DNA from: Diphasiastrum complanatum
Lineage: Eukaryota; Streptophyta; Lycopodiopsida; Lycopodiales; Lycopodiaceae
Assembly: GCA_029204225.1 (NCBI GenBank)
Contig: CM055107.1
Coordinates: 19,251,815 to 19,315,814 of the forward strand
Length of the DNA: 64,000 bases
Direction: 5' to 3'
The notes under the pieces are model-generated. The model saw nothing but the letters and a program-made list of their open reading frames with translations. It made no database searches and was not told the DNA's origin. This document shows positions 2,612 to 60,819 of this stretch, one piece after another. The position numbers and the translations under genes are program-made. Numbering within the stretch: the first letter of the stretch is position 1; each line of letters begins with the position of its first letter.

Positions 2612-2677
2612 CGACGGGGAAGGCCCACGGGCGGGGGCCTTCCGCGTTTGGAGGCGCCCTCGGGCTGCCGCCCTCGG
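2612..2677. repeat. GC-rich hairpin island
   Basis: This short stretch is strongly GC-rich within AT-rich DNA. GGAAGGCCC at 2618-2626 pairs perfectly with GGGCCTTCC at 2635-2643 around an 8-base loop. Just downstream CGCCCTCGG occurs twice (about 2655 and 2669). The composition is unlike the flanks, suggesting a small inserted GC cluster or organelle- or bacterium-derived scrap. The sequence alone does not say which. Confidence 0.5.
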
Positions 2678-4328: not shown

Positions 4329-4550
4329 AAAAAAAAAATTTATGTCCATGTACCTCAGATGAGAATCGACCTCCAGGACCTCATGGTGAGGAAAGATGCT
4401 GTATCATTAGACCGGGCAACTGTTATTTAAGATATTGTACTCATTATTGTTGTACTGAGGACACCGCCTATTTGTGGGCAGGGTTTGAACTTGAATGGTC
4501 AATCCCACACCAAGGATTCTCTACCACCACAATACACAGGGGCAGATGAC
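4329..4550 (-). repeat. Candidate tRNA-derived SINE
   Basis: Read on the minus strand, the segment starts near 4545 with an A-box-like TGGTAGAGAATCC. A B-box-like AGTTCAAACCC follows about 22 bases later. Further on there is a second tRNA-like stretch (CGGTCTAATGATACAG ... GGTCGATTCTC), and the segment ends in a T run that appears as ten A on the plus strand at 4329-4338. The order, pol III boxes then body then homopolymer tail, is that of plant SINEs, some of which end in poly-T. I found no clear target-site duplication and no second copy, so this is tentative. Diverged tRNA pseudogenes are the alternative. Confidence 0.35.
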
Positions 4551-6281
4551 TACTCAAAATATTTTAATGATAACAACCCTTGAGTGTTTTGCAATGGCTC
4601 CAGAATAGTAACAATCAATCACTCAGACATGTTATTCTTTCTTGGTGCATTCAGTGGTTGAATAGAAAATGTTTTGCAATGTGACTAAGAAGCTAACTTG
4701 GTGTTTACTTCATTCACTATTTTTCGTTTGCTACAAAGTTACTGTTGGGACTTTTGCAAATAAGTTATATGGCTTCTGTGGTTGGTCAGGGAGGAGTTGA
4801 TGTTGATGAAACTGTCCATGAGGCAGATAAATATCCAAGGTACCTCTAGTAACTACTGTGGAGGCAATGGGTATCGAGGTGCAGCCATCCCTGCGACTAG
4901 CTCCATGCCTTACGATAGTCAAACTGGAAATGTGAAAGGGTACCTGACAGCAGAAGAAGTTCCAGAAGTCTGGCAGGCAGCTTCCTCAAAAGGCAAACGC
5001 CACAACAAAAGTAAAAAGTCAGACAATCAAATCAACACCTAAATATGGCATGCATTTGACCATTTTCGACTTTCTCGCATGTTTGATAAGTCTGTGGCAA
5101 TAGTTGCTTGCTGCAAGGGGCATGAGGTTAAAGAAGGAAAGTGATTAACCATACGTGGAGATGTGAATGAGAGTGGTGTGAATGCTGGACAAAGGATTGC
5201 TTCTGACTGTTTCATGGTTCCAATGTCACTAAAAGTATTTCGTTTTACATATTTGTTTTCTTTAGCAAAAAGGCAAAGGGCAGGTGATATCTGTGGTTGT
5301 ATCTGCTCGGGAGAGTATCAGAGTACGATTCTCTACCTGCTGAAATCACACCACTCAATTTTGCAGGTTGTTCGTTAAATAAGACCACTAGAAGTGGCCG
5401 TCTAAACGCTTGTCCTTATGTGACCTATAAGATTGTATGAAATTAATGTGGTAAGATTGCGAAACCTGCCTTTAAAGATAATTGTGTGTAGTTGTTTAGC
5501 CTCATTGGACAAGATTTGATTAGGATTTTCGGTGTGCCTTAGGTTTAACGCGAGCATAATAGGACAACTTAGGCTATCTTTGATTACCAGCATCTCCTGG
5601 TGTTGATGCAATTGATCATTGCACCACAGCACAAAGTTATAAGATGATGCGAGACATTCAATCTGCTGTAGGATGTAGATCCAGTTATTTTTCCTCAGAT
5701 GCTTTCAGGCTTTTGCTTCATCCATTTTGGAGAGAATTGAGGAAAGGCACCTGCCTTGTTTTATCTGTGAAACATCTCCCACAAAAGCAGACTTAATAGT
5801 GTCAACGCAGCATTGACAGTTATGAATGTGAACTTGAGGTTTGTGTTGCAATGATTAGGCATTTTATTTTGCTGATTAGAGTAGAAGTGTGAGGCACAGC
5901 AATTTACTTAGTAGAGTAGATTTTTGTATTTTCCAATGACATTTATGACATTCTACTTTTTTCTTTTTCTTTTTTAAGCTTAAAAGCACTATTATATATT
6001 CACAAATGTATAAGTACGAAAAGACGTCAACCCAAGGCCGAGTCAGTTAAAGTCCAAGAAAATTGTCTAGTAAGCCATAAGGAGAAGACCATAGCATACC
6101 ACACAGGGCAGCGGTCAAAAACTAACTTAAGTACTGCATATAAAAAAAGTAGCTAGCCTAAGACAAGCTGTAGCCGAGAGGGGAGTAAAAGCACCCTCCA
6201 ACACCTGTTGATTCCTTGCTGTACAAATCCATTATAAAACTAACAGCCTGCACACGTGCCAAAAAGTAAGAGCAGAAGAAT
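4551..6281. other. Unassigned intergenic DNA
   Basis: I see no supported gene. An open frame of 86 codons at 4782-5042 on the plus strand ends in a Lys/Ser-rich tail but has no motif I know and no visible gene structure around it. The sequence becomes T-rich near 5950-5990. Confidence 0.55.
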
Positions 6282-6485
6282 GTGATGGGGGACACGGAAA
6301 TCTGTCAGGCATCACTAGCCAGTGTTAACACAGAAATCCAACCGACATCATCAGACATTGATGAGGCCCTCGATTCTAATAAATTATTGCACACTCTGGG
6401 CAAAGCAGTGCTGGAACTTCACCAGAGTAATAAGCAACGCAATAACTAAATGCAAGACCTCTACTACAAGCTATTACCTCAACTA
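6282..6485 (+). repeat. Upstream copy of a 204-bp direct repeat
   Basis: This segment is repeated 549 bp downstream at 6831-7034 with about seven mismatches. The downstream copy is the N-terminal gag region of gypsy-1, so this copy is a displaced duplicate of gag coding DNA. The 345 bp between the copies hold no recognised gene. The pair could come from tandem duplication followed by divergence, or from recombination between two element copies. Confidence 0.8.
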
Positions 6486-6809
6486 GGCTAATGTTGTTTA
6501 TGCGATTTTTTTTGTAATTTTGTTCTTTTCCAATGGATATATCTCAGCCATATTGGGTTGTATTAATATGAAGGCAGTAGATGTGTAATGGCTTGTGTAA
6601 TTGAGTTAATAAGTTTTTGTCAGCATTATGTGGTTATATTTTATTTCGTTGCTTAAAGTCGGAATTGCAACATTCATTGGTATAATTTAATAAGCACATT
6701 GCTCTCTTAAGAAACCTTGGTTTTTTAGACATTGTCTTATTAACGAATATTATACTTGTAATGGAATTAAAACTGAATGAAATTTTTTGATTTTTCAGTT
6801 ACACTTGTA

Positions 6810-7743
6810 ATGGACAAAGATGATGTTCCAGTGATGGGGGACACGGAAATCTGTCAGGCATCACTAGCCAGTGTTAACACAGAAATCCAACCGGCATCAT
6901 CAGACAGTGATGAGGCCCTCGATTCTAATAAATTATTGCACACTCTGGGCAAAGCAATGCTAGAACTTCACCAGAGTAATAAGCAACACAATAACTAAAT
7001 GCAGAACCTCTACTACAAGCTATTACCTCAACTAACTTGGGCTATCAACAGGAAGTACTTTCCGGCGATAAAAAATTCAAGCGCCCGGAAGTTGTTGAGG
7101 ACTGGGTGAATCGTTGGACAAGCTATTTTAGCTTGCACAATGTGGATAAGCGAATATCCTCAGTTCTACTGTTTCTAGAAGGCAAGGCCTCCTCATGGTG
7201 GAGGGAACTTTCCACGAAATCGATGACTTGGGCTAGATTCCTAACGAAATTCCGTAAAGCTTTTGTCACGATAGTCGATCTCGAGCTATATATCCATTTT
7301 ATTAACTGTAAGATGGGCAACCGAGAACTAAACGGTTATGTCCAAGAGTTCTTGGATTCTTTGGTCAAGGTGTCGTTATTTGCTCATAAGTTGGCACAAT
7401 GGCAGTTCATCTCTCGACTGCCAGAGCCGACTAACAAAATGAGTGTAAACGGAATATCCTCCATTCACTAGAAGATGTTATTCATGTGGCCAAGGCCTAT
7501 GATAGCACTGTTGTTGCCTCACGAAAAAGCGCGCACGGCCAAATGGCCCTGAAACCCAAAATGAAAAAGTCAACCAATAAGCGGAAGAAGCAGTTTTTCG
7601 AGGAGCTGGAAGCAGAGGCGTACCAACAGTCTAAGAAGAAAAAGAACAAGAAGAAGCTTGTGGTAAAAGACAAAGCATGGTTGGCAGCGCTGAAGCAAAA
7701 TTTGTGTTTTCTCTACAATAAACCCGAGCACCGTGCTAAATAG
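6810..7743 (+). pseudogene. gag: gypsy-1 gag, decayed
   Basis: Gag is the structural protein that packages retrotransposon RNA. The first frame starts at the ATG at 6810 and ends at a stop near 6998. The core continues in another frame from about 7037 with the typical WVNRW ... FLEGKASSWWREL pattern of Ty3/gypsy gag. A third stretch (7486-7743) is Lys-rich and ends in a damaged zinc knuckle. There the second Cys is Tyr (CFLYNKPEHRAK) and a stop codon precedes the last CP. At least two frameshifts and one stop separate the pieces, so no functional Gag is expected. Confidence 0.8.
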
Positions 7744-7776
7744 TGTCCCGAACGAAAAGCAAAGTCATCAAGTTTT

Positions 7777-8416
7777 ATGGCAGTGGATTTACCGACAAGT
7801 AAATTGGAAGTCAATTTGTTAAAAAATTGTGCTTCTACTTGCAATTTTAGTACACTTTCTTTCAAGCCTAATGAATTGTTTTGTGTGAGAGGCAATATAT
7901 TAGGGAAAGACGTAGATGTACTATTTGATTCAGATAGTACTCACAATTTTTTGAATGCTCCGACTTGTGCAGAAGCTCCGAGTGCCCACCATGGCCAGCG
8001 ATCACCATTATGTGGTCCGTCTTGCCTCAGGGTCGGACATTGAGATATGGGATGTCAAAGTCTCAAATTTAGAGCTTCGGATGCAGGACCATGTTGAGCC
8101 TTTGGACTTCCATATCATGAATCTAGACATAACTGATGTGATCTTGGGTTATGAATCATTTTTCGATAAATCTGATTCTTTAGAAATAGATTTTAAAAAC
8201 CATATTTTGGTATTTAAAAATAAGTTTGATCAAATTGTCTCTATTTCTGGAGAGACCGATGTACTTCCATCGCTGATGATTTTCTCGGCTGAATTAATAG
8301 AGAAACTTCATGATTCTGAGTATGAACTCTTTCATTTGGTTTTAAAATCTCGTATGCATTGTGATGTTGGTGATGTGAATGTGTTTTCATGTTTTAACAC
8401 TGAAAGTTCGCCTTAG
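7777..8416 (+). pseudogene. gypsy-1 aspartic protease region, decayed
   Basis: The frame 7777-8043 carries VLFDSDSTHNFL, equivalent to the DSGATHNF active-site motif of plant Ty3/gypsy proteases, with Gly replaced by Asp. A frameshift near 7955 moves the reading to a second frame ending at 8416. That frame holds the expected downstream protease/linker pattern, including a DVILGYESF-like segment in place of the usual ILGxDWL. The substitution at the catalytic loop plus the frameshift indicate an inactive remnant. Confidence 0.75.
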
Positions 8417-8463
8417 GAACACCAACTTTTGCAAGATTTGAAATAGGAATTTAGTGAAGTTTT

Positions 8464-9780
8464 TCTGAAATAGCTACCTTACGGACTACCACTTGCTCGG
8501 TCGGTGGACCATAAGATAGATCTATTGCCCGACAACTGTTCTCCTATCTTCAGACAACCATATCGGTTTAGTCAAAAGGAAGAGGAGGAAGTAGTTAGGC
8601 AAATCGAGGAATATCTCAAGAATATCTAGACCAAGTAAGTCTCCATGGGGAGCACCTGTCCTTCTTAAGAGTAAGAAAGATGGGGGTTTTCGGTTATGTG
8701 TAGATTACAAGGGTCTGAACAAACTTACGGTAAAAAATAAATACCCGTTGCCCAGGATGGATGACCTCATAGATCGGTTGAATGGAGCTAAGTACTTCAT
8801 GAAAATTGATCTATGTATGGGATACCATCAGATCAGGATACATCCGGAAGATGTATCTAAAACCGATTTTAGGGCCAGATTTGGCCACTACGAGTTTTTT
8901 GTTTTGCCCTTTGGTTTAACTAATGCTCCGGCAACTTTCCAGCAAATGATGAACGATTTATTTCGTCCATATTTGGGGAAGTTTGTAGTAGTGTTTCTGG
9001 ATAATATTTTGATCTATAGCAGAATACTCAAAGAGCATGCTAAGCATCTCTGTACTGTCGTATCTTAAGAGAAGCTTTATGCAAAGGAATCAAAGTGCGA
9101 ATTCTTTAAAAAATGACTTCTTTACCTTGGTCATAAGGTCACCTCTTTTGGGATCAAGATTAACGAGGAAAAGGTAAAGATAGTAGTAGAATGGCCAGTC
9201 CTCAAACGATTCATGAACTTAAGTCATTCTTAGGTTTCTTCACTATGTTTTTCCGTAGATTTGTAGAGGAGTACTCGGAGATTGCTGCACCTCTCAACAA
9301 TATGTTGAAAGGTGTGAAAAGTCGCAAAGGTAGGCCAAGTCCTCCCATCAGATGGAATGAGAAGTTAGATGAGAGTTTTCAGAAACTCAAGCTTCTAATT
9401 GCCTCAGCTCCAGTCTTGAGGATAGCGGATCCAAAATATGTCGTTCGTCATTAGCACTGACACGAGTGATACGACTATTGGAGTTGTTATCTTACAGGAG
9501 GGCCAGCTTGTTGCCTTTGAAAGTAAGAAACTAACTGATGCGCAGGTTAGATATACTATGTAGGAAAAAGAGCTTTTTGCAGTGACCCATGCTTTGAAGT
9601 CATGGAGACATTACCTGTATGGTAATAAGTTCGTGGTTAACACAGATTACCAACCTTTAAAATATTTCTATAATCAGAATTATTTGAGAGGTCATAAGGC
9701 CAGGTGGGCAGAACTTATGCAAAAATTTGACTCTGAAGTGCGATATATCAAAGGCATCTAATTAGGTGGCTGATGCACTT
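8464..9780 (+). pseudogene. gypsy-1 reverse transcriptase and RNase H, decayed
   Basis: RT motifs are easy to follow: [46 protein letters not shown], then [13 protein letters not shown]. The catalytic FLDD motif is FLDN here, so one metal-binding Asp is lost. Stops occur near 8626-8640, at 9066 and near 9112. RNase H follows in other frames, with ELKSFLGF, then AFESKKLTDAQ and HALKSWRHYLYG, again broken by stops and frameshifts. It once copied element RNA into DNA; this copy cannot. Confidence 0.85.
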
Positions 9781-11288
9781 AGTCAAATTGGTGGAGTGAA
9801 TGAACTTTCCTTCATTGAGACCAGTAAAGACTTTTATCTCTCCCTGAGAGGTCTTTGTGAGAAAGACCCACATTTTGGACCAATCTGGAATAGGGTTCTA
9901 CAGTTACATCAAGCGGGACTGATGATCATGGTGATCAGTCTGGGGGGAAGGATAAAAAGGGTGCTGATGATTTCTCTATCTGTAATGGACTTTTGTTCAG
10001 GAAAGGGAAGGTTTGTGTGCCTGATGTGGATGTTATTAAAAATAAAATTCTTTATGAATGTCATGACTCACCATGTGCAAGACATCCCGGCATACATCGT
10101 ACATTAGATTTGGTACGAAGGGACTTTTATTGGCCAAAATGCAAGACCTTTGTAGAATCTTATGTGGTCAAGTGTAATCAATGCCAGTTGAATAAAGCTG
10201 AATGCCGTAAGGCTGGCGGATTGTTGCATTCATTGGATATCCCGGATAAGAGATGGGATAGTATTTTCATGGATTTCATGGTTGGGTTACTGTGGACGAA
10301 TAAACAACATGATGCAATTTGGGTTGTGGTCGACCGTCTTACCAGATTGGCTACGTTTATTCTGGTAAAGACCACCGCGAAGGCTTCTAATTTAGCTCAG
10401 ACATTTGTAGAACGTTTGTTTAGACTTTACAGATTACCAAGTGATAATGTGGGCGATCGCGATCCGAAGTTCATCGGTCACTTCTGGTCAGTCGTGTTTG
10501 CTAAACTAGAGACGACACTGAGCTTGGGTTCTTCTAATCATCCTAAGACAGATGGACAGACAAAAAGAACAAATTAGATGATCGACGACAATCTGATTGG
10601 GAGAAGTATCTTCCATTGATCGAGTTTGCCTATAACAGTAAGCATTCAGTACCGGTTATAGCCCGTGTATGCTTATGTACGAATTTGAGCCTAGGTCACC
10701 CATTGCGGTAGAGACTCGGACAATCAAGTTTCAGAAGATAGTGGATTTTCTACATGATATGCAGGAAATGCTACGAATTGCACGCGAAAATGTCCAGTGT
10801 GCCCAGGATAGGGACCGAGATTATGCAAATCTGAAAAGATCACCAAGAGACTTCCAAGTGAGAAATTGGGTATATTTGAGAATCCCGACGGATTGTAGTG
10901 TAATGCATACCAGCAAGCATTATATATTGTCCCCTAGATATAGAGGACCGTATCAGATCTTGAAAAAGATCGGATCCTTAGCTTTCCAATTGGAACTCCC
11001 GAAAGGATGTCAAATGCATCCGATATTTCACATAAGCCGACTCAAGAAGAGTCTACGTGAAGCGTGAAGGAGAGCAACTTGGATCTAGAGATCAATTGGA
11101 CCTGTTGGATAAATCATCGGGTGTATCTCGACTTGAACCCAAAAAGATCTTGGATACAAGAACTAAATGATTGAGAAATCGTATAGTTACCGAGCATCTG
11201 GTTCGATGGAAGGGATGTACAGATGATGATGATTCTTGGGAACATGAGGGAAGCTTAAGGAGGAACTTTTCCAGTTTTAAGTTCTGAG
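9781..11288 (+). pseudogene. gypsy-1 integrase with C-terminal chromodomain, decayed
   Basis: The HHCC zinc-binding region (ECHDSPCARHPGIHRT ... CNQCQLNKAE) lies at about 10050-10200. DDE-core landmarks follow: FMDFMVG, GDRDPKFIGHFW and HPKTDGQTKRTN (where QTERVN is usual). A stop after the last motif and a frameshift separate it from 10669-11067, which carries the GPY/F-type LSPRYRGPYQI. In a further frame, 11100-11288 encodes a chromodomain-like end (EHLVRWKGC ... SWEHEGSLRRNF). The chromodomain places this in the chromovirus clade, whose integrases use it to target chromatin. Multiple stops make it non-functional. Confidence 0.85.
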
Positions 11289-11330
11289 GACAAAACTTGA
11301 ATAAGGGGAGAAGAATGTCATGCCCAGCTC

Positions 11331-12002
11331 TAAAATCCTATGAAAAAAAACTTGAAATAAAAACTCAGATCAAATCTGAAAAATTCAAATCAAGTGAACG
11401 CAAGCTACAAAAACAATAAACTCATCAAATCTAATTGGAATTCTCATAGAATCATCATGAATTATGGATCTATGCTCTGATATCAAGAAATGTCATGTGC
11501 CAAATCCTAAACTAATAGCAATTACAATGAAGTAAAGCTAAAAGCAAGAAAATAACAAGACAATCATGATAGCATATCAATAGAAAGCTAGAAACATGGA
11601 GATCTCAATGAAATCACATTAGCAATGAAAGAAAGAGTACAATCAATGGAAATGGAGCATTAATTCATGTGGATAGGGCACATGAGACATAGCAATGGAG
11701 ATCCCTATGGCTCACATTCACAAGAAAGCTAGAAGCTCTCACTTGCAAATGAGCCAAAAGATTCACAAAATGATGTCTCTTGCCTAGTTATAGACAATGC
11801 TCTTACTTAACTTAACTATCTTGAGGGATAGTTAGCCCTTGTTAAATATTATTCAAACTACTATTATCCTTATTAGTTACTTTGAAGGGCCTAAAGAGGG
11901 AACCATCTTGTTCTTAGGCTAATAGCTCCTTTTGGGCCTACAAAGCTTACAATGGATATTTTATTGCCTTAAAAAGCACTGATGTACTAAAAGTACATGA
12001 CT
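11331..12002 (-). repeat. Family G fragment: leader, PBS and LTR
   Basis: 11331-11490 matches the leader of element G (compare 49865-50231), with an internal deletion. It includes a primer-binding-site relic GCTCTGATATCA, mutated from GCTCTGATACCA. From TGTCATGTGCC at 11491 to GTACATGAC at 12001 is an LTR of family G, about 512 bp against 538 bp in the intact element. Orientation is minus. The final CA has decayed to CT. The fragment directly abuts gypsy-1 without an intervening LTR, implying a recombination junction at about 11330. Confidence 0.8.
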
Positions 12003-12577
<575 letters not shown>

Positions 12578-12880
12578 ATGAAATAGGTTATTGTAAAGTC
12601 AAAATTGACTGAATATAAGAGAATATAACCATAGATTAAAAAGAGATTGTAATTTATTTAACACATCACAAAATATTCGTTGGAGAGGGGCCCAATAGAA
12701 CTCAAAGTTGGATTTCTTGGGACCCGTATTTGAATTTTGATTCAAAAGACAAGAAAAGAGTCATAGAACAGCACAAAATCTCCTTGTACTTGTGGGAGAA
12801 GAGAAAACAACTGAAAACAAACTGAAAAGATTATTTTGGCACAAAAACTATTCAGAAAAAAGCATACACATGAAGACAAA

Positions 12881-14436
12881 ATGGATAGAATCAAGATCTA
12901 TCTTGAGAATACCAATGGGATCTACACGGAGCTTCCATGACAACATGGTGGCAAAGCTGTTCTTACCAAGACTTTCTTTGAGGATGTTTTGAAAGTCAAC
13001 TGTACAGGGGTGAAGATCTTTGGAATACTGATGCATGAAAATTCTTCATTGGAGGAAGAGGTAGAAGTGCAGCCACTTAAGATTGTTTTTGAAAATGAGA
13101 ACGCGGTGGAGCACAAGAAAAGTGAGAGACAATGACCTTCAATATATGGATTCTTGGATGAGTTGGTAGAATCTCAGAATAGCCCACTGGAGATCTGATG
13201 TCTATTGTAAGGCTAAATCACTTCAATCTTGCATGTGTATACAAAATTTTATGAAGTATACATATTAATATATTAATTTTTTCTTGTTAATTGTTGCAGA
13301 TCGTCAATGTTGATAATGTGGAGGCCCTAACACGAACACCATGAACAAATTTGGCAGAGTCTGTGCATGGTAGCGGGATAGCTGGAGAAAATAGATCTCT
13401 CTCTATGATGACTGTGACAGATCTTGCAAACGCCATTTTGCAAACAGCCAAACAAATTTCATTCAACGAGGGAAGACACATAGGACGTGGTCCTAGTTTG
13501 CAAGATCTTGTTGATCGAGTGTTTTGCAGAGCGAATGCAACACCTCAATCTAGGTTTGTTTAGTGTGTGGTGCAACGTGTTGTGACAAGGACTAATACGG
13601 AAGAGAATCCACAAATGCATGGTGATAGCACACATACTCGAAAGCAGAGTGTTCATGGCAGACGTAGCAGAGTGACTATTGAGGAAGAGCCAGAAATTAT
13701 CGGTGCAGCACAGCAAAATGAGGTCGAGATAGCAGCACAAAATGGAAAAAGAGTTGTTGAGAGAAACGCAAATGATGCACTTTGGGCCATTAGAATATTA
13801 CCACCTAAAAGCAAAGTCAGATGTATGGGATGGCTAGAAGGAAAAGGGAGATGTGACCAAAGATGGCTGGAGGAGAAAAGGGAAAACCCGCTCCTTGTTT
13901 CTTTAGTATGCTACAATACACCGCATGGCAGAAAGGACAATTTATGTACTTTTGTAGCAACAATGTTCAACACACATGGAATCCCTATCTTAGCATCCAA
14001 ACAATACCTGGAATGGCTCCAGGTACTTGGCCAATAGCCATTGACACCCACCTAACAGCTAAGGAGGTCGAGAAACTCAATTTGGCAAGTTTTCATTTGA
14101 AAACTGAAATAGGAGTTCCAACAATGTTGCCACATAACCAGGAAGACACTCAAAATGGGCGCTACAGGTCACATATATCAAAAGAGGCTTTAAAGAGAAT
14201 AGAGTTAGCTGCCAACATGACAACGAGTGGTCTCAACAGAAGTAGTGAGAGCAAAAGAGCATCAAGTTTTTGAGATAAAGACAACTCACTCAAGGATTGA
14301 GGGACGTACGTATAGAGTCATAATTAGCACAAACCCCTCTTGCACATGTCCAAATTTTATATTTCATTCCACAAGAGATAAAAAAAATTTGGCCTGTAAA
14401 CATACGTTTTTGTTTACATGCGGGTGTTTGGATTAG
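12881..14436 (+). pseudogene. Decayed gene with C-terminal SWIM zinc finger
   Basis: A first exon-like frame runs from ATG 12881 to 13132 (MDRIKIYLENTNG start) with one internal TGA at 12938. After an AT-rich gap a second frame opens near 13300, following a GCAG acceptor-like site. It runs with one TAG at 13561 to about 13900, shifts frame to 13863-14273, and shifts again to 14227-14436. The last piece holds a SWIM motif CxCx15CxH (CTCPNF ... ACKH, 14341-14406). SWIM fingers occur in MULE transposases and in plant nuclear proteins. No DDE transposase domain is visible upstream, so I cannot say which. Two stops and two frameshifts make it a pseudogene. Confidence 0.6.
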
Positions 14437-14670
14437 ATCACAACCATAGCATGTACATACACCAACCCATGTTGTCAAACATTGAGGTCTTTAGGGTGCT
14501 ATCTCATGCACGATTGCTATGAAAATTTCCTTTATTGACATTTCTATGTATTGATGAGGTTGTATTTCATTGATATTTGTCAATGCAACAATTTCTCTTC
14601 AAAAAAAAATATTCGACTGTCCAAACATTGTGCATGTGGATCTGACTGTATTGTTACATATTCAAATTAA

Positions 14671-15290
14671 GTGTGTTAGATTTTTTTACCTGAATCTTAC
14701 ACGTAGAATTGTACTCCAATAGTGTGGAAAGAAGCCAATTTGAGAAATATATTTACATTACTTTTTATATTTGCCACAATGATAGAAAATGTCTGTTTTA
14801 ATGTTTTACCTTAATGCTACAAGTAGAATTGCATTGCAATAGTGTGGTAGGAAACGCCATTCGGTAGGCACTGTGTAAGATAGGTATCTATCATCTTTTA
14901 TGGTACTGTAAGACTTTATAACCACTGTAAGGTATCTATCATCATTTATAGCCACTGTTAGATTTTTTTACCTAAATTTTACGCACAAAATTTTATGGCA
15001 ACAGTGTGGAAAGAAACCAATTGAGAGCCACTCTACATGAGGAATATATCATCTTTCTTGGAAGTGTCCATGTTCACAATATTTTTTGTATTTACCATTT
15101 TGATAGTATTTTGGTATATTGATACATATGCACAATGATAGAAAATGTTTGTTTTATTTTTTTACCTGAATGCTATGGATGGTGGCCTTGGCATTCATCA
15201 ATACTATGATAGGAAGCCAATTCGGTAGTCATTGTGTATGATAGCTATCTACCTTCTTTTATGACTGTGCACAGGTTGACATAAATTCTT
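14671..15290. repeat. Degenerate tandem repeat, about four units
   Basis: A motif beginning TTTTTACCTGAATGCTAC recurs near 14684, 14803, 14965 and 15155. It is followed by AGTGTGG...AGGAAGCCAATTCGGTAG and then a TATCTATCATCTTTTATG-like segment. Unit spacing varies from about 120 to 190 bp because of indels. It looks like an old, decayed satellite-like array rather than coding sequence. Confidence 0.6.
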
Positions 15291-16532
15291 TTTTTTACCA
15301 TTCTGGTATTATTGTACAATATTGCATCACATAAGAGTCACATGTACTTAAAACTTAGAACAGCGCAACTCTTCAATTATTCTACATAGTGCTCACTTTT
15401 CCATGCTCGCTCGAATGGATACTGGCTTGCTTTTTCGTGCTCGCCAAAAATCTATATTCGACAAGATGGAGGGGCACACACAATGCATCATCTCGCAAAA
15501 AAAATTGAAAATGAAAAGAATGTTGTGCCACATACCACAGGGAGGGGGAGGATGACTAAGTAGATCATCAATCGCCCGCTTTGAGCATCATCCACACGTC
15601 TCAACCCCAAGCCACCACCCAAATTGTCAGTTGCCCCATCAATGACGAGATAACCCACTAGTATATATAAATAGAGAGAGAGTGTGTGTGTTTTTGCCAT
15701 CAAAAATGTCACGCTGCTCACATATCTCACTGAGATCTTGTAACTCAGCTACAAAAGTACTCTCAACAATTTTCCAATCCCACTTACCTCTAATTACATA
15801 ATTTCTCCCACTAAATCAACCCCTCTCTGATCCTAGTACTTAAACTAAGATTAGGTTGACCCAATATAGAACTCTCAAACTTAAATTTTGATCAAACTTA
15901 CTTCTATTCCAATCTTTTACTACACTACTTATAGATAATAATTCAAATTTCAAACATGTTCTAGATACAGATTGTCCACACAATCCCTAGAGAATTCTTC
16001 TTTTTCGAAAAGTTCCAATTAGGTATCTTCTCTGAATCTATCTGAAATTACTTTCAAACCAAATCTCATTTCTATACCACAGTTGGTTCTCTTCCAAAAA
16101 CTATGCAACCTACAAATTCTCAAATAGAATTTTATCCCACCACTTCACCCCTCCTTTAAAGAAATTATAAATTTCAATAAAAGTTAACTGGAAAGATGAT
16201 ATATGAAAATAGTTAAATCCAAGAAAAGTCAATAATAAGTGCTTCCACTAAAAGATTCACTCTATTACAAACAGAACTTTTCGTTCAAACATTTTCAACC
16301 CGAGTGATAGAAACTACCATTCCATCGAAATCCATTTATGCACAAAGAGATATTCTAGGTTTAAAAAATTGAAACACTTTAACCTTAAAATTTGTTTGAA
16401 TTCCAAGTCTATTCACACAAGTAGTAATTTATATGACATAAAAGTCTTTCAGAAGAATAAGGTCATGCTGGAAAGAATTCATATAAACTAGTTTGATGTC
16501 TTATATTCAAGAAATTACTAAGAAGTAAAGGA
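15291..16532. other. AT-rich unassigned DNA flanking copia A
   Basis: No gene is recognised. This DNA and that after 21525 form the original insertion site of copia A: AAGGA at 16528-16532 is its left target-site duplication. Confidence 0.6.
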
Positions 16533-23340: not shown

Positions 23341-25056
<1,716 letters not shown>

Positions 25057-27720: not shown

Positions 27721-28045
27721 TTTTGTACCTTCTTCATCCGGTGAAGTAGTACATGAATGTTTTCTTATCCTTCAGTGAAATATCTTGAGATTTACCCAAA
27801 ATTTTAAAAGAAATCCTCGACATTTCAAAGATTATCACAGACAATTGAGAATCTGCAGAGAGAAATATTTTTTAGGAAAATTTCAAACATTACCTTAACG
27901 AAAATACTGAAAACTTTAAATAGACAAGCAATTTTTGTGAAAAATCTCTAAAAATCATAAGTAATATTTGCAATTTTTGTAAAATTTAATTCTAAATTCA
28001 ACACATTTTATTACTAAAACGTCTCAAAAGTTTTACTTTTAAAAT
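27721..28045 (-). pseudogene. ParB-like gene, 5' fragment (second copy)
   Basis: This is the reverse complement of about 57270-57560. It includes the intron-acceptor context TTTTTCTCTGCAG and the ATG at 27821-27823 beginning MSRISFKILGK. It keeps the base missing from the other copy at the poly-A position, so the frame stays open through KDKKTFMYYFTG. A TGA follows and the homology stops before the ParB-like domain. The upstream palindromes of the other copy are not present here. It shows the gene is part of a repeated unit. Confidence 0.7.
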
Positions 28046-28766: not shown

Positions 28767-29599
28767 TGTGGAAAAAGTACAAAAAGGACCAATAGTGGAT
28801 CTTAATCTGATCCTCAAGAGGGATTGGTTGTCAGATTACTTGATCTATCAATCTACTTGAGATTAAGATCAATCTAGATCAATTCTAGACACAAAATCCT
28901 AACAAGAACAATCATTAATTGAAGGTAGGTGTACTTTCTGGTTTCCCACGTGTGAAACCCTGTTTGAGTACGGACTCCAACCTGAAAATCAAGTACACAT
29001 TGATAGCACCTCAAAACAATCAAAACAAATGTAGACAAATGGAGAGAATCACTCAAAATTGCTTCCAAAACCAAGATTGGTGTCTCACAATGATTATGGC
29101 CAAATGTGGCTCTATATATACAATAAGTGGGAGCTCGTGGTACTGATCATCCCTTTGATCCCACATGTGCGAAGGTGCTTTGTCATATGATGATTCATCA
29201 TGCAAAACTGACACTTGGACAAAACCTTCTATTTTGAGCACTTTTGGTCCATTTTCCTTCTATATAATTATCTACTTGAAAATCTTCTAGAAGTCAAAAT
29301 TCGTCTACTTCAGCTTATTCCACACATGTGAGTTGTCCTCTACACATGGGATGTGACACCTAACCAAAGGATGTGGCTCATGCAATCAATAGATTGATGC
29401 CATGTGTCATATGTCTAGAAAACTAGTTTTTGGCCTTTTTAGCCACTAGAACTTGAATTGAATTATATGTACAACCTATATGATTATGGTACATGACAAG
29501 TATACTATTTTCACATGTGGGAATAGACTGCACACATGTGTAATCATCCTATATACAAGATTTTTGGCCTCTACCAAGCTTATTTTTGTATTTTTCACA
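28767..29599 (-). repeat. copia B 3' LTR (833 bp)
   Basis: Begins TGTGGAAAAAGTAC and ends GTATTTTTCACA on the plus strand. It contains several CACRTGTG-type palindromes, for example CCACGTGTGAAA, CACATGTGCG and CACACATGTG. The minus-strand polypurine tract GATTTTTGAGGAG lies just beyond. Confidence 0.95.
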
Positions 29600-30063
29600 C
29601 TCCTCAAAAATCTAGCTAGCATAGATCTATCTATAACCCCAAGAGCCAATCTTGATTTTATAAATGGATCTTTAGGCAATGCCTTGGTGAGTATATCAGC
29701 AATGCAATCTGATGATGAAACATGAATAAGCTTGATCTCCTTTGCTTGCACTTTCTCCCTCACGAAATGATGTGCAATCTCGATGTGCTTTGTTCGAACA
29801 TGGAAGACTGGATTGTTTGCAAGTTGTTGAGCTGCTTGATTATCACAATATATGCATGGAATGTCTTCATCCTTGATCACATGTAGCTCCTCCAAAAGCC
29901 TTTTAAGCCAAAGAACCTCCTTTGTTGTTGTTGTCATAGCTTTATATTCGGATTCTGTTGATGAAAGAGAGATGGTATCTTGCATTTTGGAAAGCCAAGA
30001 TATAACTCCTTCACATAAGAACGTAGCAAATGCACTTATGGATCTTCTATCCATCTTGTCACC
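29600..30063 (-). pseudogene. copia B RNase H
   Basis: The open frame starts just beyond the RT inversion breakpoint. It carries SISAFATFLCEGVISWLSK, DTISLSSTESEYKAM, KEVLWLKRLLEELHV, CIYCDNQAAQQLA, KHIEIAHHFVREKV and DCIADILTKALPKDPF. The domain itself reads through without a stop and the frame continues into the LTR. It cannot be translated as a fusion with RT because the RT part upstream is inverted. Confidence 0.9.
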
Positions 30064-30656
30064 ATTCCTATCTTATTTCCATTGGATTTGTTGTAAGTTC
30101 TTATGAACCATCATTGTACTACAAATTTAATGATGGAAAGATCATTATCTTAGTTTTATATGTTGATGACATTATACTCACAGGAAATGATCTAGATGGC
30201 ATTAAGAATGTAAAAATTTCCTTGTCTAGTGAATTTAAGATGGTAGATCTAGGACTTCTTAAAGTTATACTTGGAATAGAAGTCACTAGAAGTAATGATT
30301 TTACCTTCATATGTCAATCTAAGTATGCTAGATCAATCTTAGCAAGATTTGGCATGATTGATTGTAAAGGAGTTGAAACTCCTATGGAACTAAGTGTAAA
30401 AGGTTCTAAGGAAAGTGATGAAGCATCCTTTGAGGACATCACTACCTATAGAATGCTTATTGGTTCCTTGATATACTTAACTATCACTAGACCAGATCTT
30501 AGTTTTTGTGTTGGCAAGTTGAGTCAATACATGCAAAGTCCATTAATGTGTCATTGGAAAGGAGCAAAAAGGGTGTTAAGGTACATCTCGGCTACAAAAG
30601 ACTTTGGCATAGTTTATGAAAGGACTAATATTTGTTTGAGAGCATATTCGGACTTG
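30064..30656 (+). pseudogene. Inverted reverse-transcriptase segment of copia B
   Basis: In this minus-strand element, about 590 bp read as copia RT on the plus strand: SYLISIGFVVSSYEPSLYY, ILVLYVDDIILTGNDLDG, KMVDLGLLKVILGIEV, RPDLSFCVGKLSQYM and RVLRYISATKDFG. The minus-strand RT stops after GLKQAPRAWY at about 30660 and resumes with GDKMDRRSIS at about 30063. These are exactly the two points this block should connect. It is a local inversion with loss of only a few codons at each junction. The YVDD box is intact but in the wrong orientation. Confidence 0.9.
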
Positions 30657-53838: not shown

Positions 53839-54635
53839 GATAAGATAAAAACCTTGTGATATGATTCTACAAATATAATTTGTGACTCTCAAGACTAGAT
53901 TTGAACATATTCAATATTCTAGAAGGATCCACAAAAGATCTAGCTCACATATCTAAGAACCAATCTTCACACTAATAATTAGTTACTTGGAAAGTTTGCT
54001 TTGATCACTAAGACAAAAGCACACAATCTTTGAATCAAATCACAAAAGAAATCAGATCCAAACACTCCTATTGGACTCAACAAATTCCAATGACTCTTTC
54101 TTTTGAGAGTTGAAATGGATATGAAAAGATTTGACACCTAGAATTTCCTTTTCACTTGACTAGTTCTCTCAACACTTGAGATTCTTGAACAAAAAATGGG
54201 TTTTGTTTCAAACACATGAAAATCAAACTTAATCACTTTCTTTGAACTCACTCTTGACCCAAATAATCTTACTCTTGAGATTTAGAATGAATTTGATTTG
54301 ATTTGACAACAAACTATACACCAATTTTCACAAAACATAGGATCTACTCTAGATCACTCAAACTTGACATGTACATTTGATTCAAACACATAAAATTAAG
54401 ATCCAATCACCCCTTTTGGAATCCCCAAATAATCTCACTCTTGAGATTTGGAATGGATTGTAATAGTTTGATAACAAACTACGTCAAGAATTTTTCACCA
54501 AGCTTAAAAATTAGACACATAGAAATTCACAAAGATCCCAACCATGCATGAATACTCAAATATAGACTCCTCCTTGTTCTAGACATCCAATGGGATCACA
54601 ACTTGACCCTCACACTCTCATGGATATGCATACCA
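53839..54635 (-). other. Element E leader remnant
   Basis: About 800 bp matching the reverse complement of the D leader around 61810-62417, ending abruptly near 54635. No coding frame. Confidence 0.75.
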
Positions 54636-54649
54636 CCAAAGTGAAGCTG

Positions 54650-56138
54650 CATTTTTTTTTCAGAAGGAAGTTCCAGCTCTTGAAACTTGACAAGTTCGTG
54701 GGTATGTCCTACCATTAAAAATCATATTTTTTTTTTTGAAAAAAACTTTCTCCACTAGCATGGACAAGTATGCCAAAACAGTTTGGTTTTTATTTTCCCT
54801 AGCAATGTTGTCAAGCTGCAAATAAAGTATTTCTAGAAGATTTTCACCAAATTCGCAAATTATCTTATGTACAATGGTGATCGTCAAATTTGGATCATTT
54901 CAAAAATTGGGATAATTAAAAAAGACCTTGGACTCCAAAGTGCCATTAAACACAAGTGCTCCAACGAGATGAACCTGAATAAAATCTGCCTCGTTCAAAT
55001 TTTTGGGCACTCTGACAAAATGAGGCAACATTGTTTTCTTCTGATCCATGCCATCAATAACAAGTCCCAGATATTTTTGTGGACATTCCAAACATTTCTT
55101 TTGATGCTTGGCCAACTTTTGTCTTTCAACTGTTTGTTGATCTCTATGCAGTTGAAGAGCTTTTGCAGCATCCACTGAAAATATAATGATTCACTTATTT
55201 AATAGAATAAAGATCATATCATAATGATATTAAAAAAAATTGCAACTTAATTTTTTTCAAAACAAAAAGTATTAAAATGAATGACAAATTTAATTGATAT
55301 TTACCTTTCTCATCATTGGTCTTTGCAAGTTGTTTTGCATACTTTAACAACTCGCAAGTGGAGCATACTGTCATTCATGATTTTTTGAGAATCTTTACCA
55401 GTCCAAAATCTCTTTTTCAAATTCTAAGAAAATATGAATAACTCAAATAGGAAACATTTTTTGTTTTGGCAAACTCTTTGTACATCAAAAATATTTTAAT
55501 TTTGTAAAATTATCCGGCAAGTGAAAATATAAGGAATTAGGCAATTTCTCTTTAGCCAAGCAGTTGCATTTAAAGCATCTAGAGAAACAAGTCGACCTTG
55601 TAAGAATCCTCGTAATGTTGGGTCTTTCTGAAGTCGTGCATGCATTCGTTGAAGCCGTGAGTTTTTTATTGCATGAACTGATTTGTAAGAATTTTCAACG
55701 AATATAACTCTTTTAGATTTAACACGACGAACATCACTTTGAGAAGGTCTCCTACGAACATGAGAAAAGCTTGAACGTCGCGGATCAGCAGACTTACGCG
55801 GATTTGTTGATTTACTAGAATCAGTAACTGAGTGAATTGAAGCTTTTGACTCATCACTCAATGATTCAACTTGTTCAAAAAAACAATATTCTAATTGTGC
55901 AAAGCCTGTATCTGAAGAGGAGGACGAGATCGAAAGATTTGACACAAGTTGAGTTACAGGCTCAGAAGATGAACGGGTAAATGATGATGATGCCACATCA
56001 TTTATGAAAACATGTTGAGAATCAGGAGTGGCTTTATAAGAAAAGCTTTCATTGGGAATATCAGATAAAGATGATGCACTTGTTGCAACACGTATTGAGT
56101 TACAACTACTGGAATAGAAGAGGTAGAACTACTTGACA
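54650..56138 (-). pseudogene. Transposase-like protein, GMDQ/ENKN/GHTHE family, decayed
   Basis: The probable start is ATG 56136-56138 with a Ser-rich N-terminus. After a frameshift, 55996-55500 encodes Ser/Arg-rich residues and SLDALNATAWLK. Broken frames then give LPNSLYFHLPDNFTK and VCSTCELLKYAKQLAK. A clean GT-AG intron at 55175-55304 follows. The next exon reads CPQKYLGLVIDGMDQKKTML, VHLVGALVFNG, LYLQLDNIARENKN and YLSMLVEKVF. After a one-base slip in a T/A run it gives FLMVGHTHE (GHTHE at 54695-54709). I recognise this set as a widespread uncharacterised family seen in repetitive genes of animals, oomycetes and others. An RNase-H-like transposase fold is my inference. Several frameshifts and stops make it defunct; its end is lost at the junction with element E. 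Confidence 0.7.
55175..55304 (-). other. Intron in the transposase-like pseudogene
   Basis: On the minus strand the donor reads GAGAAAG|GTAAATA and the acceptor ATTTTCAG|TGGATG. The length is 130 bp, and splicing joins the reading frame exactly (NDEKV then DAAKALQLH). Confidence 0.75.
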
Positions 56139-56170
56139 TCGGAAACTTAAAAAAAAATTTAAATATGTAC

Positions 56171-57235
56171 TTATGCTAAGCATAGACCGTCAAAATAGTT
56201 AACACATAAAACTAAATGTGCTCCACAAACTTAACTGCAACCTATGCTGGTCATAGAACAAATAAAAAGCTATGCGAACCTCAATAGACGTAAACAAGAA
56301 AAACAACTAAATGCAAATGAGCAACAAGCCTAGAAAGTAACTGGTTAATTGAAATTTCCAGTAGCTACCATGCCTTAAATACTGTTTGGCAGCGTTCTTA
56401 GGGTTAGGGTTGACCCAAGAGTAGGTTTAGGGTTAGGTTTAGATTTGGACGATCCCGGCTCAGCAGAAAAGTCGGCGTGAGGTGAGGTGAGGTGAGTTGC
56501 GGCAACTCGGTCCCAACACAAGCTCGAGGTCGACAAGAAGTGAATTGAGTCTCATGCTCCAAATCGACGTGAGGCGGGGGTCTAAAAAAAAAAATTATTT
56601 AAGAATCGTAGTCCAAACATAACTCACCTCATCTACGAATTCAGAAGCACACATGCTGCCAGAGCTCTCGCTGTGACAAAATCACAGATTTCTATAGTAT
56701 ATTGCATACATTCTCGCTCACACATTTCTTGATGGTAAGATTATTGTCATTTTTTAACTTTGTTCTATGTTTTTTGCATTACTAAATATTCAGGTTTTAG
56801 CTAGTGTTCATCTTCTTAAAACTTAGATGACCTATGCTCAGCATAGGTAGCTGCACGAGTCCTCTCCTCTAACCTATGCTGAGCATAGGTTGTGTTCGGG
56901 TCTTAAGTAACAACCTATGCTCAACATAGAAAGCCGGTGGGATGTTTCTATTCTTCTCACGTTTTGACTTATGTTGAGCATAGGTTGCATCTCTGGTCCT
57001 CTTCTAATCTATGCTCAACATAGGTCGTGTGCTCTAGTCTCACCTATGCTCAGCATAAGATGTCTTCGCATGCTGCTTGCTAACCTATGCTTAGCATAGG
57101 TTAGAAGAGGACTAGAGATGCAACCTATGCTCAGCATAGGTCGATAAGTGATAAGAATAGAAACATCACGCCGACATCTTATGCTGAGCATTGGTTGTTA
57201 CTCAGAACCCGAACACAACCCATGCTTAGCATAGG
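56171..57235. promoter_or_regulatory. Array of 17-bp palindromes CCTATGCTNAGCATAGG
   Basis: Copies, perfect or with one to three mismatches, start at about 56171, 56241, 56831, 56873, 56914, 56968, 57008, 57043, 57084, 57124, 57178 and 57219. Further copies lie at 57861, 59673 and 59751. Each is itself a palindrome, as for sites of dimeric DNA-binding proteins. They fill the spacer between two divergent gene starts (56138 and 57466), where an operator, a transposase-binding region or a parS-like cluster would sit. Confidence 0.85.
56399..56441 (+). repeat. Telomere-like repeat in the spacer
   Basis: TTAGGGTTAGGGTT, then after 11 bases GGTTTAGGGTTAGGTTTAG. Such telo-box-like runs occur in some plant promoters; here it lies about 260 bp upstream of the minus-strand gene start. 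Confidence 0.55.
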
Positions 57236-57236
57236 T
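56872..57236. repeat. Large inverted repeat, ~155-bp arms
   Basis: The left arm (56872-57025) and right arm (57083-57236) are reverse complements apart from scattered mismatches. Landmarks are GTTGTGTTCGGGT with ACCCGAACACAAC, GATGTTTCTATTCTT with AAGAATAGAAACATC, and GGTCCTCTTCTAA with TTAGAAGAGGACTAG. A loop of about 57 bp holds one more palindrome. Transcripts across it could fold into a long hairpin. Confidence 0.85.
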
Positions 57237-57812
57237 CGTTACTTGTATTTTTCTCGTTTTACAAAGCTTAGTCTGAGAAAAGTGAAACTTTTGAGATGTT
57301 TTAGTAAGAAAATGTGTTGAATTTTTAGTTATGATTTTTAGAGATTTTTCACAAAAATTGCTTGTCTATTTAAAGTTTTCGGTATTTTCATTGAAGTAAC
57401 GTTTGAAATTTTCCTAAAAAATCTTTTTCTCTGCAGATTCTCAATTGTCTTTGATAATCTTCGAAATGTCGAGGATTTCTTTTAAAATTTTGGGTAAACC
57501 TCAAGATATTCCACTGAAAGATTAAAAAAATTCATATACTACTTCACCAGAGAGGTCAACAACACAAAGCTGTCTGAGCTTTTTATTCATTTAGCTGAGA
57601 AGTCTGGCAGGGGAGACTCACAGTTCAAAATTCAAGGAAGATTGTTTGCTGATCAACCAGATGAGGATGAGGAAGAAGGTTTTGTGAACGTGCTTGTAAA
57701 GGAGACGGATAAGTCTCGTTCTATTTTCATTCTGAGCGAGACTATGATAAAAATTCGACTTTGCCAGGACGAGGCCATCAAAGCCTATTTTGATAAAGCT
57801 CTAGTTACTTTG

Positions 57813-58013
57813 GTGTGTAATTATAAAACATATTTTTATTCATGTATGTTTACATTTGTTCCATGCTTAGCATAGTGATTACTAAATATCAAATTCTATA
57901 AACTTTTAAGTAGAAAACCTTTTTGTAAATTGAGTTGTCATGTGTTGTGAGCATAGCTAGTACAAATGCCTTTACTCATTATATTTTAAACTTGTTTTTT
58001 TGTTTCTGTCCAG
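57813..58013 (+). other. Intron 1 of the ParB-like pseudogene
   Basis: Donor ACTTTG|GTGTGTAA and acceptor TTTCTGTCCAG|AGCATG, 201 bp; splicing keeps the frame (VTL then SMKQ). It contains one copy of the 17-bp palindrome at 57861. Confidence 0.7.
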
Positions 58014-59018
58014 AGCATGAAGCAATGCTTAAAAATGGTTCTAGCTGCTATTGTTGAGGAGAAAGATCCGGTCTACTCATTACGGAGTTCAAAAGGTGTA
58101 TCTATTGGACCTCGCAAGCCTGCTTCTACCACTGCTCAGGTCACAAAGCCAACCTCTAAAAACGTTGAGGATCATACTGTAGTTGTCCCTCATCCCAAAA
58201 AAAAAAGATCTAATAATATTTTTGAGTCCTCTCCCACTAGACCCAAGTCACGCCCAAAGACCATAGCTACACATCACCACAAGTCCATTCCATCTGCTGA
58301 AAGCAAGAAAGCCGCGACCGAAGCGTCGATGTCTTTACCTGGTGCCTCCATTCGTCCCTTACAAGATAGCTATGAGCTTGCTAAATTAAGGAAAGATATT
58401 CATAAAACGAAAAAAATTAAAAAACCAACTTTTATTTTAGATATAAATCAGTGTGATAGGCCACCTGTAGACCCAATAACAGGAGATAGGCTAATGGAAG
58501 TAAGAGAACCAAATAAAACACATGTACATAACTTAAAAATAAAATTTAAAGATCATACACAAGCCATAGTTACTCATTTTATTGTTTTGGTTGATCCCAA
58601 CGAATGCAACGATGCTGTAAATTTTGATTTTTCTTTATTGGATTCATAACATTTTTTTGTTCTTGGGGGCATACAAAGTTTACAAGCCCGAAAACAGTTA
58701 TCTCAAGAATATCCCTATATTCCATCCTTTCGAACTGTGAGTGCAATTGCATTTGCTGGCCTGACAGTGGAAGAAACCAAATTATTGGCTTGGGACCATA
58801 ACATTGATCAAGATTGTCGGATGAAAATGACCGTCATACAAAGAATCCGATTCTTTCACAAAGAATACACGAGAGTCTCCAAAGCAGGAGATGTGAATCA
58901 ACTAGAGCTGAAAGCACTCTATGCTCAAAAGACAAGCCTGTCTTTTGATTCAAAAAATCCTACATAGAGCCTTACAAAATATGATAATTTTTTTCAGCTT
59001 GCTTTTCGTAGTGGCCGG

Positions 59019-59167
59019 GTAATTTTTTTTGTTATGCTCGTCATGGAATGCTCTGGTCGTAATATATGTTATAATCCTTTTAAATTATTTTTATCAGACT
59101 AGAATTTTGAACTCAATTTTAATACTTCCTAAATTCCTTATCAAATAGTTTTTTTTATTTATTTTAG
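59019..59167 (+). other. Intron 2 of the ParB-like pseudogene
   Basis: Donor GGCCGG|GTAATT and acceptor TTATTTTAG|GTGTGG, 149 bp. Joining the exons gives RSGR followed by VWALVDKIF in one frame, which supports real splicing in the ancestral gene. Confidence 0.65.
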
Positions 59168-59854
59168 GTGTGGGCCCTTGTTGATAAAATTTTTGACAAA
59201 TGGAAAACATTTCAAATAAAAGGCCAACCTGCTCAGGGTGTCTCAAAGTCAAAGAAAAAAGTTGTCAACACTCAAACTCTGAAGCCAATCCCTACAGAAA
59301 TGGGAATATCAAAGTGAAAGAACATACAAGGCATTAGCTCTTTAGAGCTAATAATAAGTGTTTTTCTAGAGTTGCCGATGGCCAACTTTCTTTGGCAAAA
59401 ATGAGAGAAGAATTTCAAAAGTAATAGTCATAATCTAAATATTTATTTTTATGTTACTTTTTGTAATAAAGTGATTTTCATGATTTTGTCGGATTTTTAA
59501 CAATTATAATTTTTAAATGCAGGCATAAATTATTTATAAAAGTTCAAGAAGCCCTTGTGACAAGGTTAAAGTTAAGATTTCGAAGACTGCCAGATGCTTT
59601 ATCCTTTGAACAGCCGAAATGAACATTTGAGTCCATTTCTGATTTTGTTTAGAGACATGATATTTATTTCACTCATGCTTAGCATAGGTGCTTATTAATT
59701 GTTTCTTTTTTATATTTTATGTCTCCTATTCTATTTTATATTTTATGTCTCCCATGCTAAGCATAGCTTTTTTTTTTTTCAGTCCCCTAAAGATAAGAAA
59801 AACAAAGTCCTTCTAGGTAATTCAAGAGACATATTTTGAAGGCAAAAGCAGCAA

Positions 59855-59986
59855 AAAGGGACAGAGAGAGATTATTGGTCCAATTCACCCTGCAGCAAGA
59901 AGTACCCAAGTTTCATATATAATTCTGGCCACAGACTACCTCACCAAGTGGGTCGAAGCCAAGGCAATAAGAGTAGCTGATGCTAG
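59855..59986 (+). pseudogene. Ty3/gypsy integrase fragment
   Basis: In one plus-strand frame: GPIHPAARSTQVSYIILATD followed by YLTKWVEAKAIRVADA. This is the integrase-core segment around the first catalytic Asp as found in Athila/Tat-type plant gypsy elements. It is cut at 59986 by element D, whose presumptive left TSD is GCTAG (59982-59986). The other side is outside the window. Confidence 0.85.
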
Positions 59987-60819
59987 TGTGAGAAATGCAA
60001 AAATAAGCTTGGTAGAGGCCAAAAATTATGTATATAGGATGATTACACATGTTTGGAGCCTATTCTCACGTGTTAAAATAGTGTACTTGTCATGTACCAT
60101 AATCATGTAGGTTGTACATATGATTTAATTCAAGTTCTAGTGGCTAAAAAGACCAAAAACTAGTTTTCTAGACATATGACACATGGCATCAATCTATTGA
60201 TTGCATGAGCCACATCCTTTAGTTAGGTGTCATATCCCATGTATAGAGGACAGCTCACATGTGTGGAATAAGCTGAAGTAGGCGAAATTTGACTTCTAGA
60301 AGATTTCCAAGTAGATCTTCATATAGAAGAAAAATGGACCAAAAGTGCTCAAAATAGAAGGTTTTGTCCAAGTGTCAGTTTTGTATGATGAATCATCATA
60401 TGACAAAGCACCTTCACACATGTGGGATCATAAGGATGATCAGTACCACGAGCTCCCACTTATTATATATATAGAGCCACATTTAGTCATAATCAATGTG
60501 AGATACCAATCTTGGTTTTGGAAGCAATTTTGAGTAATTCTCTCCATTTGTCTACATTTGTTTTGATTGTTTTGAGGTTCTATCAATGTGTACTTGATTT
60601 TCAGGTTGGAATTCGTACTCAGAAAGGGTTTCACACGTGTGAAACCAGAAAGTACACCTACCTTCAATTAATGATTGTTCTTGTTAGGATTTTGTGTCTA
60701 GAATTGATCTAGATTGATTTTAATCTCAAGTAGATTGATAGATCAAGTAATCTGACAACCAATCCCTCTTGAGGATCAGATTAAAATCCACTCTTGGTCC
60801 TTTTTGTACTTTTTTCACA
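59987..60819 (+). repeat. Element D 5' LTR (833 bp)
   Basis: TGTGAGAAATGCAAAAATAAG ... GTACTTTTTTCACA, the same length as the copia B LTRs and readily alignable in inverse orientation. Confidence 0.95.

Follow-up and report, generated by a model that had tools for sequence, protein, structure and literature searches.

The interval 54640..59780 of a 64,000-nucleotide stretch of the Diphasiastrum complanatum genome (assembly GCA_029204225.1, contig CM055107.1, positions 19,251,815 to 19,315,814; the whole stretch is hereafter called the window) is best read as an old copy, truncated at both ends, of a DNA transposon that occurs in high copy number and has two divergent genes. In better preserved copies the element comprises a DUF7869 gene and a ParB-like gene in divergent orientation, followed by a DNA methyltransferase on the strand of the ParB-like gene, and arrays of short palindromes lie between the two gene starts. 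With a probability of about 0.58, the transposon would be Sola1-like and would encode an accessory protein that binds the element's own palindrome array and methylates the element's own promoter.

The minus-strand gene of the window (54653..56139) is a broken gene for a DUF7869 protein, a putative DDE/D transposase, with coding pieces within 56139-55496, 55371-55305 and 55174-54653. When these pieces were joined by hand for the Pfam search, they matched DUF7869 (PF25273) at E 4.5e-30 (105.1 bits; gathering score 26), and the single unjoined piece 54660-54899 matched the same family at E 3.2e-15 (56.7 bits). The motifs that an earlier sequence-only reading of this DNA had picked out in this gene were confirmed, with GMDQ and LQLDN..RENKN at 54660-55190 and, read in a different frame, GHTHE at approximately 54700. 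That reading had also taken both genes to contain introns and to start about 1.3 kb apart. At least one GT..AG interruption was indeed found in each, the one of the DUF7869 gene being a probable 130-base intron at 55175..55304 (minus strand; seven of the eight Azolla-like copies introduced below have one uninterrupted frame), and the candidate ATGs, 56139 on the minus strand and 57466 on the plus strand, are separated by 1.33 kb. In the DUF7869 alignment, D147 and D189 were nearly invariant, and an IDGMDQ block was present in most of the rows extending that far.

The plus-strand gene starts with a coding piece at 57466..57812, in which the frame changes past the start. It continues through a probable 201-base GT..AG intron (57813..58013) that holds a palindrome at 57861-57875, the main coding piece (58014..58967) with an in-frame TAA at 58647-58649, and a further piece at 59168..59314 (WALVDKIFDKW...), the counterpart of WDLQDKIFTMW in the Azolla-like proteins. 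Frame changes disrupt both window genes. Where they could be matched, the joined window protein and the Azolla-like proteins were 25-38% identical. Its sole resemblance to ParB is the order of two motifs, a GGSHSAEAR-like box followed by a GLTVEEAKLLAWDHN-like box, which resembles that of ParB boxes I and II. The equivalent region of an Ectocarpus element has been named ParB-like (PMC12477816).

The extent of the truncation was seen by comparison with L087, another copy in the same genome, in which positions 2238-3261 (90.7% identity) and 3646-7658 (80.6%) were matched by window DNA. Relative to L087, the window copy has lost roughly the final 40% of its DUF7869 gene (a value estimated from L087, where the gene reaches about position 998), the left end, 384 internal bases (L087 3262-3645, absent at the junction 55689..55690) and everything beyond 59733, the right limit of homology, which falls short of the methyltransferase pieces. 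Both the left and the right terminus are thus absent from the window copy, as is the methyltransferase part.

Relatives outside the genome of D. complanatum were sought by scanning contigs of prokaryote genomes for motifs, which returned ten stretches. Eight of them are contigs of one metagenome-assembled genome (MAG) labelled "uncultured Trichormus" (CAKZGI01), here called Azolla-like; since Trichormus includes the Azolla cyanobiont, they are most likely fern (Azolla) contamination. A GTDB species genome thus appears to hold several contigs of transposons probably belonging to the host fern. The ninth stretch, L003, is a 3.6-kb contig of a marine MAG (WTJN01000124.1) with a broken, eukaryote-like DUF7869 gene and a palindrome array of its own, probably likewise contamination and a distant relative. 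The tenth, L008, had no protein match and was dropped as a relative. Four scans of viral contigs returned no relative.

All eight Azolla-like contigs matched DUF7869 above the cut-off, with one uninterrupted frame of 873-924 amino acids in seven and a frame of 529 amino acids in L007. The ParB-like gene is also present on five of the eight (L001, L004, L006/L088, L007 and L010), divergently oriented in every case and separated from the DUF7869 gene by 0.9-1.4 kb in four of the five; the other three contigs are 3.7-4.2 kb long and end 550-670 bases past the DUF7869 start. In L088, L001 and L007, three extra frames lie downstream of the ParB-like one, in the same orientation, with the motif ADIPYGF ahead of VLDLFSGT. 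The three pieces of L001, joined by hand for the profile searches, matched Pfam N6_N4_Mtase at E 4e-13 (50.3 bits; cut-off 26.7) and NCBIfam CcrM at E 2.6e-12, the latter scoring only 46 bits where the cut-off is 830. The relatives thus show both the N6_N4_Mtase profile and a (D)xPY motif ahead of FxGxG, as expected of beta-class N6-adenine/N4-cytosine methyltransferases. In L087 the same methyltransferase pieces occur with stops at 7725-8669. From their order and strand and from a published parallel, the ParB-like part and the methyltransferase may form one spliced protein. The earlier proposal of one element with two proteins therefore stood as regards the pairing, and was incomplete in that it overlooked the methyltransferase downstream in intact relatives.

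Linkage of the two genes was also found within the 1.74-Gb genome of D. complanatum, where counts were obtained as lower bounds from the best 150 of 2953 first-look candidates for DUF7869 (two clades mixed), the best 101 of 3526 for the ParB-like gene, and the best 40 of 3526 candidates scored with a left-side query across L087. The family looks large in this genome. For at least nine of the 150 DUF7869 places, a ParB-like place (among the best 101) or a right-side place (among 40) was located within 20 kb, compared with 0.48 under a uniform expectation, and seven of these nine are divergent at 3.9-5.9 kb. Likewise, at least eight of the 40 left-side places have a ParB-like neighbour not more than 20 kb away (0.09 expected). 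The orientation was as expected in all eight, and the distance was 4.3-5.5 kb in seven and 16.9 kb in the remaining one; these eight include the query locus, and two of equal distance may be one duplicated locus. The window copy, being devoid of termini, could on its own be two unrelated elements lying side by side by chance; given the same divergent layout in five of the eight Azolla-like contigs and in the linked matches of its own genome, the likelihood of such a coincidence is negligible. Two independent elements were accordingly rejected on the co-occurrence in Azolla-like contigs and the own-genome linkage. The suggestion that the two genes travel together thus held: they co-occur elsewhere, and they did not fall apart into separate known elements with termini of their own. 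The own-genome DUF7869 copies formed two groups, with L050, L052 and L087 at 44-51% identity to the Azolla-like domain and the remaining matching loci at 30-38%, except for one short piece at 44%. Most of the 30 best own-genome DUF7869 loci (L027-L056) belong to the second, more distant group.

A common left edge was recovered among the best 40 left-side places: 35 of the 39 non-self main matches start at query position 250/251, which corresponds to L087:649, and four start later. Two flanks were read, and L050 shares the edge of L087 while its flank differs. The left edge of L087 abuts a piece of the ParB-like gene of another copy, as if L087 had inserted into it. The element start, ACATTTGT..., is similar to the left end seen in six of the Azolla-like contigs (e.g., CACGTTTGCGTGAAGAACAGG), and an inverted version of the left end occurs at the right ends of L007 and L088, with which the right end of L001 agrees. 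Terminal inverted repeats are therefore present in the relatives L007 and L088; in the genome of D. complanatum only the left edge was found. Directly past the right end of the element in L088, starting with the first base, lies a region of dense direct and inverted repeats (10952-15592).

The palindrome CTATGCTNAGCATAG, allowing up to three mismatches, has 18 matches in the window (100 shuffles: mean 2.8, largest 8), 15 of which are located at 56171-59766, 12 in the spacer and three in the plus-strand gene, bearing out the earlier description of a palindrome-rich spacer. The spacer array (56171..57234) consists of a dense group of ten sites at 56832-57234, spaced by 35-42 and 54 bases, and two sites nearer the minus-strand gene; two of the three in the plus-strand gene lie in its 3' part (59673..59766), at 59673-59687 and 59752-59766. 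The consensus of the window family is ACCTATGC-TNA-GCATAGGT. In the whole genome the exact palindrome has 2681 forward and 2705 reverse matches, counts that overlap because the site is a palindrome, and the reversed control has none. On seven of the eight Azolla-like contigs the palindrome is AGTCGATGC-N3-GCATCGACT or a sequence that differs from it by not more than five mismatches. Counted with up to four or five mismatches, L010 has 10 such sites, L004 15, L001 5, L005 3, L002 3 and L088 2, and in L009 the array consists of ATCCGATGC-N3-GCATCGGAT three times. L007 has no counted palindrome, with one match at five mismatches, because its spacer is lost and the two genes abut. The arrays of the window family and of the Azolla-like contigs are alike in layout and in an ATGC/GCAT core.

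Centre-to-centre spacings in the Azolla-like arrays are 31, 41-43, 50-54, 62-63 and 72 bases. A Rayleigh test at period 10.45 gave p 5e-11 on 34 spacings and 2e-5 on the 18 that are distinct per locus, values that overstate helical phasing because 24 of the 34 spacings are 50-52, the units may have arisen by tandem duplication, and the choice of period was made by hand. The palindromes are nested within a larger inverted repeat of 154 bases with 85% complementarity, as would be expected if the importance of the arrays lay in the structure that they form in DNA or RNA (hairpins, or inverted repeats acting in replication or silencing) and not in the binding of proteins. We consider this improbable, as the half-sites in plant copies are kept around one to three variable central bases and at regular spacings, as in sites for dimers.

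A more serious alternative, although still an unlikely one, is that the palindromes are sites of the DUF7869 transposase itself, acting as an internal enhancer or operator, and that the ParB-like methyltransferase has its targets elsewhere or a general role. L003 would fit it, since its 3.6 kb combine a DUF7869 gene with an unrelated palindrome, CTCGATTACGCGTAATCGAG (nine sites, one with four mismatches), and no ParB-like match was seen on that contig; besides, self-repression by transposases at their own promoters is common. There is little to set against it. The exact palindrome was found in none of the 30 DUF7869 loci L027-L056, which is no argument, because these loci end before the spacer and L050 and L052, from the clade that has arrays, show none either.

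Other features of the window bear on the state of the copy and its surroundings. On its right the element is cut off at a retroelement-like coding fragment (59817..60110, plus strand), the translation of which reads as Ty3-type integrase words followed by copia-like text; the second part recurs, by the same kind of reading, in a copia-like open reading frame at 29476-30072, and no Pfam match was obtained for the fragment. A separate fragment of 205 bases at 27740..27944 (minus strand) corresponds to the start region of the ParB-like gene, with 83% identity to L087 5323-5528 and a protein match of 82% over 28 amino acids, and no further part of L087 was matched nearby. To the left of the element fragment, a 36-base unit is repeated three times at a spacing of 166-172 bases (54086-54459). 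Several other long open reading frames read as copia- and gypsy-like, and one at 23612-24064 is probably a simple dinucleotide repeat given its long (SL)n run. Rfam searches of the window returned nothing at gathering scores.

In the literature on ParB, transposons and methyltransferases, as far as the sources were accessible, a single paper on Ectocarpus was found to describe a eukaryotic transposon of this architecture. In Sola1-1_Ec32, a ParB-like and N4-cytosine/N6-adenine DNA methyltransferase gene lies on the strand opposite the transposase, as would be the case here, and green and red algal cases are cited (PMC12477816). The class is therefore not wholly undescribed, contrary to what the sequence-only reading had supposed. 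Sola1-1_Ec32 is a 21.5-kb element of a brown alga, and its description mentions no palindrome array in the accessible portion (PMC12477816), whereas the element reported here measures approximately 7.8 kb in L088, resides in plants and carries lineage-specific arrays. SOLA elements have also been reported in Azolla, with neither genes nor arrays described in the part of that article available (PMC6786969). Going by the architecture and the Azolla report, the element would be Sola1-like, with DUF7869 as its putative DDE/D transposase. The novel part would be the palindrome arrays, with their lineage-specific sequence, common layout and regular spacing, of which no report was found; Iyer 2011 and Petroll 2025, both cited by the Ectocarpus paper, may describe them. 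The name DUF7869 was not found in the literature searched.

Two better known systems offer partial parallels. The sopC locus of the F plasmid, downstream of sopB, is a tandem array of about 11 units with a period of 43 bases (mostly 40-42 in the window family); each unit is the binding site of SopB and, by our own reading of its sequence, holds a palindrome. Sequence comparison, however, detected no similarity between SopB and the plant protein, and SopB serves partition, not transposition. The VANDAL transposons of Arabidopsis are MULE-type (Mutator-like) elements. Their VANC protein, also transposon-coded, belongs to an anti-silencing system and is associated with family-specific arrays of short motifs in non-coding regions including introns, and would by analogy be the closest known plant precedent for self-specific motif arrays; its sites, however, share one orientation and are not palindromes, and DNA methylation is lost through its action, the accessible text nowhere describing VANC as a methyltransferase (PMC5735166).

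If the element is a Sola1-like transposon with a self-directed accessory protein, that protein would bind the palindromes as a dimer, the site spacing would line up the bound dimers on one face of the helix, and the methyltransferase part would act on the element's own bidirectional promoter, methylating adenine there or else cytosine at N4. This would probably serve to keep the promoter open against silencing, in a VANC-like or parS-like manner, and to mark the element's own copies for the transposase. A promoter-opening role would fit, since adenine methylation has been associated with permissive chromatin near the starts of active genes in several eukaryotes (PMC12695648). Methylation could instead serve a restriction-like selfish system that spares the methylated self, with the ParB-like part or the transposase cleaving DNA that lacks the mark. 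An adenine methylase that is fused to a ParB-like domain and nicks DNA nonspecifically has been reported (PMC5512222); we nevertheless hold such a system to be very improbable. Returning to the self-directed accessory protein, it is tempting, at rather less than even odds, to regard it as a self-addressing device of land-plant transposons, in which a ParB-like adenine methyltransferase reads its own fast-diverging, helically phased array and writes a protective mark other than 5-methylcytosine, under a private code for each family. The promoter array would then be the eukaryotic counterpart of a parS cluster.

Several results weigh against this interpretation, in the first place those concerning the proteins. 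The profile and structure searches suggested by the sequence-only reading identified the minus-strand gene as DUF7869, but its "ParB/Srx-like domain" proved to be a motif reading: the plus-strand product matched no ParB family in Pfam, NCBIfam or PHROGs and no PDB sequence, its nearest Pfam match being DUF6551, below threshold at E 0.053. No significant score was obtained against four real ParB proteins, the best of 16 pairwise shuffle tests being equalled by 22 of 300 shuffles. An hhalign comparison of 30 plant sequences with a four-sequence ParB profile (30 of the 36 examined; copies that were unmatched or had more than one stop were left out) reached a probability of 0.2%, in a short alignment yet in the expected register, and tblastn of the ParB-like core at E up to 10 returned one phage record and three plasmid records, none annotated as ParB. 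The single-sequence structure model of the ParB-like piece had a predicted local distance difference test score (pLDDT) of 36 and was unusable. The strand-helix order of the 16-sequence DUF7869 model (pLDDT 42) resembles RNase H by eye; however, the DDE fold is putative, because the models are poor and Foldseek searches with them returned nothing at E 0.001 or below, and a profile search of the PDB for DUF7869 gave major histocompatibility complex noise only.

Termini and spacing add to these reservations. The Sola1 superfamily is marked by its transposase sequence and by a 4-base target-site duplication. The search for shared termini and such duplications, also proposed earlier, yielded the common left terminus and the inverted ends of the relatives, but the duplication was not established: TTAA stands on both sides of L088 (four matching bases), and there is no match in L007. 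In the own-genome family, 31 of the 40 copies scored on the right side (self included) reach to within two bases of the query end and the ends of the other nine are scattered over 1963-2310 without coinciding. Two of the nine linked DUF7869 places are not divergent (5.6 and 16 kb). Finally, the common unit length of 50-52 bases explains much of the phasing in the Azolla-like arrays, the window family gave p 2e-4 on 20 spacings and 0.02 on 12 distinct ones, from two homologous arrays, the best-fit periods are unlike (10.25 in the Azolla-like arrays vs. 10.75-10.95 in the window family), and the spacings of L003, 56-58 bases, are out of phase.

If the interpretation is true, plant transposons would hold a writer of bacterial-type DNA methylation together with a private docking array, and the disputed N6-methyladenine and N4-methylcytosine of plants would become testable at defined sites. 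The element would then join VANC as a second case in which proteins for self-recognition and arrays of motifs evolve together.

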